This document shows, piece after piece, positions 6,008-39,620 of a stretch of 44,180 nt of DNA. Positions within the stretch are counted from its first letter, which is position 1; each line of letters opens with the position of its first letter. This DNA comes from Planctomycetaceae bacterium (GTDB lineage Bacteria; Planctomycetota; Planctomycetia; Pirellulales; Pirellulaceae): contig JAHEJI010000020.1 in the NCBI GenBank assembly GCA_024638965.1, positions 1-44,180 of the forward strand, in the 5' to 3' direction. The notes under the pieces are model-generated. The model was not told the origin of the DNA. It saw only the letters and a list, made by a program, of their open reading frames with translations, and searched no databases. The position numbers were made by a program, and so were the translations under genes.

Positions 6008-7000
6008 TCAATAATCCGGAATCACTTCATGGCCATTGATGGTACTGAGATATCGATACGTCGTCGCGTCAATCGACTCTCTAATGTACTGTACCGATGC
6101 ATCTCCCAGAACAAAATTTGCGCCGCCGGGATGGTAACTGAAATAGCCTCTTACCCGATCAAGAGGGTTCGTCAGATCTGTTGAAGAACTGCTCGCATCC
6201 ATTGAGATACTTAACGGTTGGCTATTTAACGGTTCCAGGATGTCGTCGGGAGTATCCCACATCCCGTCCGGACCTGGGTTTTGTGAGGTGGCTGCCAAGC
6301 AGCTGCCGCGCCCGCCTTCGTTACCTTCACCACTGACACCGTCGAAATCTGCTTTGGACCAGACCTGGCCCATGGTGCGACCCGGTCAGCCTCACGTCCC
6401 TTCGCATTCGAGTTGTGCGTTGCTGGCGGCTTCTCCGATCATGAGCGTATTTGAAACGCCGTCGGTAACACTTGCCAATGTCGTGTGGCTGTTGACGTCA
6501 AACATCCCATCGCGTAGCTCCTGGTTGTGCAAGTATGCCAAGGGACCCTTGTTCAATGCATAGTCAAGAGGCGCACCTGGAATCCCACCATCTTGATCGA
6601 CTCGTGAATCATTCGAAGGACAAAGGAAAACGTCAATTTCGACTTCTGTCAACTCAAGATTAGGAGTGGTCTTCCAATCAAAATCAAAATCGTACAGATC
6701 ATAGAGGTTTTGCTGCTCCATGTAAGGCAGCAGATAGACGAAGCCCGAATGGAGAGCGTCGCGCAAATCATCGTCGTTGTCGACGACGCCCGGCGGCAGT
6801 TCACCGAAGGCCGACTCGTAGTTGTGAACGGCCAACCCAAGTTGTCGAATATTATTGCTGCAACTTGTTCGGCGAGCCGCCTCGCGAACCATTTGAACGG
6901 CTGGTAACAGCATTCCAATCAGAATGCCGATAATGGCAATTACGACAAGTAACTCCACCAGTGTAAAACCACATCGCGGCTGTTTTGGATTGCGATTCAT
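6008..7000 (-). CDS. DUF1559 prepilin-like protein with in-frame TGA-GGC-TGA (candidate selenoprotein)
   Basis: Reading from the ATG at 7000 (GAGAG upstream), 202 codons run into TGA-GGC-TGA (6394-6386) and then 125 more codons continue in the same frame to a normal stop at 6008. Total length of 330 residues is normal for DUF1559. The N-terminus is the type IV prepilin signal GFTLVELLVVIAIIGILIGM, followed by LLPAVQMVREAARRTSCSNN. After the TGAs the frame carries the diagnostic DUF1559 end FSYHPGGANFVLGDASVQYI. Both halves are therefore parts of one gene and no frameshift is needed. The sequence around the codons would be CEGT-U-G-U-PG (U for selenocysteine at 203 and 205). A SECIS-like hairpin follows at 6355-6372. 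Alternatives are a recent pseudogene, a sequencing error, or a separate start at the ATG at 6373, which lacks a good ribosome site. Confidence 0.75.
6355..6372 (-). promoter_or_regulatory. Candidate bacterial SECIS hairpin (fdhF-like apex)
   Basis: On the minus strand, U6372-G-G-G-C-C-A6366 pairs with U6361-G-G-U-C-C-A6355 (one G-U pair) to give a 7-bp stem closed by a GGUC tetraloop. The apical A-GGUC-U is, from memory, the same as in the E. coli fdhF SECIS. The loop starts 21 bases after the second TGA and 27 after the first; functional bacterial SECIS loops lie about 16-37 bases from UGA with a G in the first loop positions. A stem this short can occur by chance, so the call rests on the match of position, apex and in-frame TGAs together. 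Confidence 0.55.
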
Positions 7001-38558: not shown

Positions 38559-39620
38559 TTAGAGGTCTTCGAGGGAATAAATTCCACCATCGGCACGCTT
38601 GCCAAGGCTGTCGAGGATGATCAAATCTGCCGTATTACGAATAACATGGGTTGAACCGTCGCCCCAAACCGAGGTAATAACACCAGGGTGAGCTGAACCA
38701 AATCCATATTCTTCGGTCATTTCACGAGTTCCGTTGCTCTGGCGACCCCAGTCGTCTGGACGTGTTTCCGTGTCTGACAAAACGCCAACTTCCCAAATAT
38801 CGTCAGAGGTACCGGTGAGGTAACCGAACTGACGCATGTGTGGCCAATCCGCTCCCGTGTAGTAGCCAGTCATTTCCCACCAGGGCCAAATGCTCAGATC
38901 TGGAATGGTCCAATATTCCGCGGGAACTGCTTTTTCGGCCAACAAAATTGTATTCGAGGCTCCGTCGACGCACGAACCAAAAGTACATCCACCCACCTTG
39001 AGGACCTCAGGCGTCGAGGAAGTTACGTTAACGTGCCCACCCTTGGTGATCAGACCGGTCCACACTCGAGTGAACTCATTATCCCTTGGCGGTTGAGTAA
39101 CTTGCCATTCGAAACCCTGCCAGTCGGGCTCGTTCCAATTCGCCAGGACGCCAGCAAAGTCGCCGAGACGCATTGTTCCTGCACCAAAATTGACGAACCT
39201 TCCTGAACGCGACGGGCATTGGAAAGTCTCGATCTCAATAAATGAAATTCCATCAGCCGTATCAATGAAGCCGTCTGTTTTGCGAAGATCTGCAACATTA
39301 TTCTGCTCGATGTAGGGAAGAACTTGGAACATCCAGCTTGCGTTTTCGTAACCGTACAAAGGCTTAAGTTCTTCGCCCGTTTGATCAAACTGCTGGACAA
39401 CTCCGCCGGCCGTTGGGAATTCTCCAAACGACGATTCAAAATTGTGCATGGACAGCCCGAGTTGGCGTACACGGTTCAAGCAGTCGGTTCGCCGGGCAGC
39501 TTCCCGTACTTGTTGCACCGCGGGAAGAAGCATTCCAATCAAGATGCCAATGATGGCAATCACGACCAAGAGTTCGACCAGCGTAAATGCCCTTCGGGCC
39601 TGATGAGGGTGGTTTCGCAT
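38559..39620 (-). CDS. DUF1559 prepilin-like protein
   Basis: The product is 353 aa; AAGGAC precedes the ATG at 39620. The N-terminus has the type IV prepilin signal AFTLVELLVVIAIIGILIGM, so it is likely processed by prepilin peptidase after the residue before Phe and anchored through its helix. DUF1559 landmarks are PAVQQVREAARRTDCLNRVR followed by QLGLSMHNFESSFGEFPTAG, YIEQNN, VDGASNTILLAEKA and the H-X9-DG-like ending GSAHPGVITSVWGDGSTHVI. Planctomycetes encode many of these next to transport and degradation genes. This one is first in the carbohydrate locus and divergent from lacI. Its exact role is unknown. Confidence 0.93.
   Translation of the reverse strand: MRNHPHQARRAFTLVELLVVIAIIGILIGMLLPAVQQVREAARRTDCLNRVRQLGLSMHNFESSFGEFPTAGGVVQQFDQTGEELKPLYGYENASWMFQVLPYIEQNNVADLRKTDGFIDTADGISFIEIETFQCPSRSGRFVNFGAGTMRLGDFAGVLANWNEPDWQGFEWQVTQPPRDNEFTRVWTGLITKGGHVNVTSSTPEVLKVGGCTFGSCVDGASNTILLAEKAVPAEYWTIPDLSIWPWWEMTGYYTGADWPHMRQFGYLTGTSDDIWEVGVLSDTETRPDDWGRQSNGTREMTEEYGFGSAHPGVITSVWGDGSTHVIRNTADLIILDSLGKRADGGIYSLEDL

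Follow-up and report, generated by a model that had tools for sequence, protein, structure and literature searches.

A putative two-selenocysteine selenoprotein family among the pilin-like DUF1559 proteins of Planctomycetes

In the E. coli gene for formate dehydrogenase H (fdhF), a single in-frame UGA is followed by a hairpin, the SECIS element. A model of such bacterial elements (bSECIS), as set out in the portion of its source available to us, allows a loop of 3-9 nt with a G in the first two loop positions, a stem of 4-16 bp and a distance of 16-37 nt from the UGA, and sets the folding energy at -7.5 kcal/mol or lower (PMC13188914). Some bacterial selenoproteins carry two selenocysteines (Sec, U) close together in a short motif, and the accessible part of a review table lists Prx-like UxxC/UxxU, FmdB-family UxxU and metal-binding UxxU proteins of this kind (PMC13188914). 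Here we analyse a gene that shares with fdhF the in-frame UGA and the downstream hairpin; its protein is unrelated, and it has two UGAs where fdhF has one. It lies in a 44,180-nt stretch of DNA from a Planctomycetaceae bacterium, called the window below. With a probability of about 0.88, we read it as a genuine selenoprotein gene: the product would be an extracytoplasmic, prepilin-like DUF1559 protein, with both UGAs decoded as Sec by SelB and tRNA-Sec under the direction of one hairpin in the coding sequence. The support that the sequences themselves provide consists of conserved UGAs, a Cys exchange at the first site, constrained silent sites in the hairpin, selection after the UGAs and Sec machinery in most carriers.

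The gene occupies positions 6008-7000 on the minus strand, as defined by its frame and its Pfam match, and begins with an ATG at 7000. A first-pass annotation had described it as one frame, uninterrupted except for TGA-GGC-TGA at 6394-6386 and with DUF1559 sequence on both sides, and this description holds: the only internal breaks are the TGAs at residue 203 (6392-6394, minus strand) and residue 205 (6386-6388, minus strand), the frame ends in an ordinary TGA stop (6008-6010, minus strand), and the Pfam domain DUF1559 (SBP_bac_10, PF07596) runs across the internal TGAs, from residue 36 to 312 (E 6e-54; 184.3 bits against a cut-off of 23.3). If both internal TGAs are read through, the product has 330 residues, two of them Sec. 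The prepilin leader is GFTLVELLVVIAIIGILIGMLLPA; residues 9-32 (6905-6976, minus strand) hold the N-methylation signal GFTLVELL and the start of the pilin helix (Pfam N_methyl; NCBIfam TIGR02532), so that the protein meets the type IV pilin-like criteria of a prepilin cleavage/methylation motif and an N-terminal helix. Nearer the C terminus lie the acidic stretch QNPGPDGMWDTPDD (residues 240-253; 6242-6283, minus strand), which by column comparison is absent from most of 17 compared paralogues and which we take to be reminiscent of calcium loops, and the H-X9-DG motif (residues 287-306; 6083-6142, minus strand; TIGR04294).

DUF1559 genes are numerous in this organism. Its genome has 25 places that match the domain, some being pieces of one gene, and the window itself contains a second DUF1559 gene (38559-39620) without an in-frame stop. 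Another own-genome copy (G000:C277:493-1368, L157) has one TGA and one TAG, at sites unlike the Sec site, and looks degraded or misassembled.

Orthologues were sought in 99 genomes, the gene's own included, with the window protein, its Sec residues replaced by C, as the query. Matches with exactly two internal TGAs were present in 15 of them (its own, 13 of the same genus and one of another genus of the family) at 49-99% identity; the next-best matches (37% identity, E 1.4e-52; 44%, 9.1e-50) had no internal TGA. When 241 family genomes were searched with a profile, 17 had matches, namely 16 two-TGA genes and, at threshold, a stop-free paralogue in G019. Sixteen genomes matched in an order sample of 396, with two TGAs in six, one TGA in two and no stop in eight; the one-TGA genes come from another family, f7 (E 8e-134 and 2e-129), and the stop-free matches were at E 1.5e-65 or weaker. 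A phylum sample of 392 genomes yielded eight matches, the two-TGA gene of the own genome and seven stop-free genes at E 3e-69 or weaker, and a sample of 43 f7 genomes yielded five, the same two one-TGA genes and three without stops. Note that these samples overlap, so their counts cannot be added, and that the family, order and phylum searches scored just 9, 5 and 5 first-look candidates per genome, which leaves room for overlooked members. Among the best 80 of 495 matches in a scan of named genomes, one (L067, on the G010 contig) was orthologous and the other 79 were 29-48% identical over their best segment. A strict Sec motif pattern run over 173 loci matched solely among the listed orthologues, passing over two of them (L031 and L033). 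This gave 17 orthologues, about 50-97% identical to the window gene, which makes a set of 18. All 18 match PF07596 at E 0.001 or better and have the whole DUF1559 domain and the prepilin signal, and 16 have the H-X9-DG motif. The codon and column counts exclude L020, which is near-identical to the window gene, and neither the tree nor the paralogue counts include L125, a 48% identical sequence that was aligned and lacks the region.

These orthologues bear directly on whether the gene is decaying or misassembled, that is, whether its TGAs are recent nonsense changes in one of many DUF1559 paralogues. DUF1559 is indeed a large paralogous family, its C277 copy in the same genome looks degraded, and further down among the matches listed in the 99-genome search there were at least three other paralogues with one TAG. 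The same two TGAs, however, are found in 16 genomes down to 50% identity, with a TGA plus a Cys codon in two more, and the presence of the TGAs in 17 further assemblies rules out an assembly error, a possibility that the first-pass annotation had left standing. Downstream of the TGAs, Nei-Gojobori dN/dS could be computed for six of nine pairs, with values of 0.29, 0.05, 0.21, 0.08, 0.10 and 0.11. These figures are rough, with three of the nine pairs saturated and dS above 1 in three of the six. Since they lie between 0.05 and 0.29, the part after the stops is, judged from codon comparison, most likely translated and under purifying selection. Decay or misassembly of the TGAs is refuted by the orthologues, and we give it practically no credence.

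A lineage-wide reassignment of UGA to an amino acid would also let the frame be read, and no evidence in its support was found. The 20 Pfam-supported genes of the window, with the Sec-type gene counted among them, end in TGA (8), TAA (7) or TAG (5), and the other 19 are free of internal stops; six of the 18 orthologues likewise end in TGA. Because TGA closes 8 of 20 window genes and no internal stop occurs in the other 19, it serves as an ordinary stop here and has not been reassigned. For the gene's own genome this use as a normal stop refutes reassignment, which can be dismissed for practical purposes.

Both sites are kept across the orthologues in a form that fits selenocysteine. At positions 203 and 205 all 18 genes have UGA/UGA or Cys/UGA, the first UGA standing one codon further upstream in three of them. 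The motif is U-x-U in 13 genes, U-x-x-U in three (U-P-G-U or U-G-G-U) and C-G-U in the two genes of family f7, so that the first UGA lies 6 or 9 nt before the second or is replaced by a Cys codon, and the distance from the second UGA to the hairpin is constant in 18/18. The first-pass annotation had held that TAA or TAG in relatives, or unrelated residues at these positions in homologues, would refute Sec. TAA and TAG are absent at both sites in all 18 orthologues. Unrelated residues occur in none of the orthologues but in all 17 of the more distant paralogues compared.

In these 17 non-Sec homologues, position 205 is A (9), P (5), V, G or M and never Cys, position 203 is not Cys either, with a Cys immediately before it in eight, and no in-frame stop or Sec-type motif was seen. 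Among the homologues found, position 205 never takes a Cys form, and Sec/Cys exchange is thus confined to the first site, where it affects two of the 18 genes. In a tree with the 17 homologues, the 18 Sec-type genes form one clade (99/98), in which the U-x-x-U genes (100/99) and the C-x-U genes (100/99) each form one group, the U-x-x-U group being derived within the Sec clade; some branches are long and rooting was at the midpoint. Because the non-Sec homologues lack Cys at both 203 and 205, the Sec pair looks, from this comparison, like a gain within the Sec clade with a Cys exchange at the first site, the direction of which is not settled. Eight non-Sec paralogues (L150-L156 and L037) have a C-x4-C motif, such as LCEGQGC, immediately ahead of the Sec-pair site, which may or may not be a structural counterpart.

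Other features mark the Sec clade as well, namely GQVWSK-A-DG, a Q-x-x-G-x-D-G-x-W-x-T-x-D-D stretch, and D268, R282 and R284. C47 and C127 are invariant in 43/43 aligned DUF1559 proteins and are likely, by inference, to form an ordinary disulfide of the DUF1559 family. The NCBIfam matches of the 18 members (June 2026) were to general pilin/prepilin models, with no clade-specific model among them.

Downstream of the TGAs, the first-pass annotation had pointed to a hairpin at 6372-6355 with a 7-bp stem and a GGUC loop. The hairpin is present (6355-6372, minus strand; loop at 6362-6365), overlies the codons of MGQVWSK and folds alone at -10.0 kcal/mol. The distances of 21 and 27 bases given for it are right as coordinate differences to the first loop base; the nucleotides in between number 20 and 26. 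In 18/18 genes the second UGA is separated by 15 nt from the GG of the stem and by 20 nt from the loop; the first UGA is 26 nt from the loop, or 29 nt in the U-x-x-U forms. The annotation had also named an apex shared with fdhF, correctly: the same eight bases, CAGGTCTG, form the apex in both, 16 nt past the UGA in fdhF and 18 nt past the second TGA here.

Taken alone, the hairpin is unremarkable. Comparable hairpins (stem of at least 7 bp, G early in the loop, 14-28 nt past the TGA) follow 52 of the 1612 TGA triplets of the window, counted on both strands and in any frame; the 26-nt hairpin folds better than most of its shuffles, with 15 of 200 as good, but at 66 nt the fold has no advantage over shuffled sequence (z +0.95), and longer windows favour other folds. 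An Rfam scan of 6200-6500 returned no SECIS family, its sole match being an archaeal leader at E 0.16, below the gathering score and at chance level. What goes beyond chance is conservation, in the 16 two-TGA genes and the two TGA-plus-Cys genes. The hairpin is kept in all 18, as a plain 7-bp stem in 14, with 6 bp in two and with an internal mismatch in two. Standard pairs fill 96.4% of 112 cells in 16 distinct rows, and RNAalifold returned the identical 7 pairs from the same alignment. The loop has 4 nt with G first or second in 18/18; in three genes (L024, L025 and L027) it is AGUU, with G second, within the bSECIS model. The hairpin thus falls within the loop, stem and distance limits of that model as far as the available portion of its source gives them, with the two mismatched stems noted (PMC13188914). 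For the 26-nt core, 13 of the 18 genes meet the energy limit of -7.5 kcal/mol and five are weaker.

Covariation, which had been put forward as a check on the hairpin, gave no significant support: a single pair had both partners altered (G-C to C-G, in L026, an orthologue from another genus), which 106 of 500 shuffles matched, and the covariation score was reached by 30 of 500. The hairpin's case rests instead on codons that could vary silently and stay constant: GGC for Gly211 in 16 of 17 genes, CAG for Gln212 in 14, GTC for Val213 in 14 and TCC for Ser215 in 12 of 12 serines. The three scored hairpin codon columns have a mean entropy of 0.56 bits, and 63 of 100000 random triples drawn from the 100 scored columns were as low after normalising; when neighbouring scored columns were taken three at a time, giving 98 runs, only the hairpin's own was so low. 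When the two codons just 3' of the hairpin are added, the value is 0.66 bits, compared with 1.37 in the remaining 95 columns (4-5 of 100000). Note that this stretch was picked after the hairpin had been seen.

The first-pass annotation had treated the Sec machinery of the genome as decisive, and the own genome (88.6% complete, 292 contigs) answers in part: selA is present (E 2e-172), selB runs for 326 residues from its start before its contig breaks off (G000:C166:28-954, L158/L011), and tRNA-Sec (selC), though present in most genus mates, was not found in this incomplete assembly. Across the carrier genomes, selB was found in 16 of 18 (not in G002 and G024), tRNA-Sec scoring at least 60 bits in 15 of 18 (not in G000, G022 and G024) and selA in 13 of the 15 searched (not in G002 and G024; in G022 as a fragment below the family cut-off), the selA count leaving out G139, G400 and G403. 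In G024, which is 71% complete and whose protein is 97% identical, no selA, selB or tRNA-Sec was found. Of 14 genus mates without the Sec-type gene, selA is present in 11 and tRNA-Sec in 13, and possession of the machinery is therefore no predictor of the gene.

Programmed readthrough by a near-cognate tRNA (Trp, Arg or Cys) would need no selenium and would yield short and long forms, both of them possibly useful, and sequence alone cannot exclude it. Two closely spaced stops would make ordinary readthrough very inefficient, however, and the remaining evidence points the same way: site 203 swaps with Cys, not with Trp or Arg; UGA is retained when U-x-U becomes U-x-x-U; the hairpin lies in the bSECIS range with its silent positions kept; and most carriers have the Sec machinery. 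We regard readthrough without selenium as very improbable. Sec insertion at the in-frame UGAs, taken by itself, seems to us very likely, in the absence of protein or selenium data.

An AlphaFold2 model built from 43 rows with C for U (mean pLDDT 86.1, pTM 0.83) has a long pilin helix at residues 14-65 and a mixed head, with residues 203-205 in a loop that follows strand 194-200 and precedes strand 208-210 (mean pLDDT of the block 73). A Foldseek search of the PDB gave nothing at E 0.001 or better; partners were found for the pilin helix alone, with no convincing relative of the head domain. The gene is flanked on the same strand by a PQQ-propeller/ankyrin gene upstream (9473-7200) and a DUF3500 gene downstream (5861-4737), an arrangement common, among the 18 loci, only to near-identical G024. 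No neighbour was shared by more than four of the 18 loci, some of which are cut by contig ends.

In the selenoprotein reading, UGA-203 and UGA-205 would be decoded by SelB with Sec-tRNA as directed by the single hairpin, and the protein, to judge from its leader, would be exported and processed like a prepilin. The Sec pair in the head-domain loop would then act outside the inner membrane, presumably as a diselenide or selenylsulfide redox site, or else as a soft-metal site. The changes from U-x-U to U-x-x-U and C-x-U fit, by inference, a chalcogen pair whose members are bonded together or share a metal; for a single catalytic Sec, a movable partner would be unnecessary. A redox role is slightly favoured, with the function inferred. 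Sec might alternatively be inserted into a soft-metal site or a structural diselenide that is no redox centre: a close chalcogen pair of variable spacing (UxU, UxxU, CxU) suits chelation as well as redox chemistry, the protein has a prepilin leader, and the review table, in the part available, includes a metal-binding UxxU selenoprotein (PMC13188914). On the other side, no widely shared neighbour gene offers a metal clue from context, and the present data do not separate metal binding from redox. We consider such a metal or structural role, again inferred, possible and rather unlikely. Returning to the selenoprotein as a whole, we offer as a tentative proposal, to which we would not commit ourselves, a pilin-like fibre or surface protein whose paired selenols serve extracellular diselenide redox chemistry or soft-metal capture, with Sec gained directly in a DUF1559 paralogue that had no known all-cysteine ancestor, and one hairpin serving two UGAs at two spacings.

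The family is apparently undescribed in the open literature, subscription papers and preprints not being covered; the first-pass annotation knew of no described selenoprotein among DUF1559 proteins, and with the same restriction no mention of one was found. In the accessible text of the 2026 prokaryotic selenoprotein catalogue, the terms pilin, Planctomycet and UxU are absent and the DUF numbers are others (PMC13188914); the available portions of two further surveys and of the deep-Sep paper likewise contain neither pilin nor Planctomycet (PMC12013277, PMC9312934, PMC5029168). One paper contains both DUF1559 and selenoprotein and, in the part available, treats them apart, a DUF1559 entry in its S9 candidate table not being excluded (PMC4807772). 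A screening method, as far as its source could be consulted, requires Cys homologues (PMC1088965). Screens of this design could miss the Sec-type DUF1559 genes, since none of the homologues found offers a Cys partner for the second Sec. Standard annotation is likely to split such a gene or label it a pseudogene. The case adds an apparently undescribed two-Sec family in prepilin-like surface proteins, a class for which we found no selenoprotein described, provides a chemically informative site in one member of DUF1559, a large family whose function is unknown, and suggests that more such hidden families may exist in Planctomycetes and other uncultured groups.

Compared with the DUF1559/SBP_bac_10 (PF07596) proteins of Planctomycetes, the Sec clade has the same domain, the prepilin signal and mostly the H-X9-DG motif, and yet stands separate, since the Sec pair, GQVWSK, DGxWxTxDD and the D/R positions occur, column by column, in at most 3 of 17 paralogues. 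The likeness to type IV pilins lies in the N-terminal prepilin helix, which aligns with that of the Neisseria pilin 1ay2 (Foldseek probability 0.99, 58 columns, E 0.21). The predicted upper stem of the fdhF hairpin is bulged, whereas the planctomycete hairpin is a plain 7-bp stem in most genes. The two-Sec proteins of the review table, as far as it is available, likewise pair two close Sec residues in a short motif, but they belong to protein families other than DUF1559 (PMC13188914).
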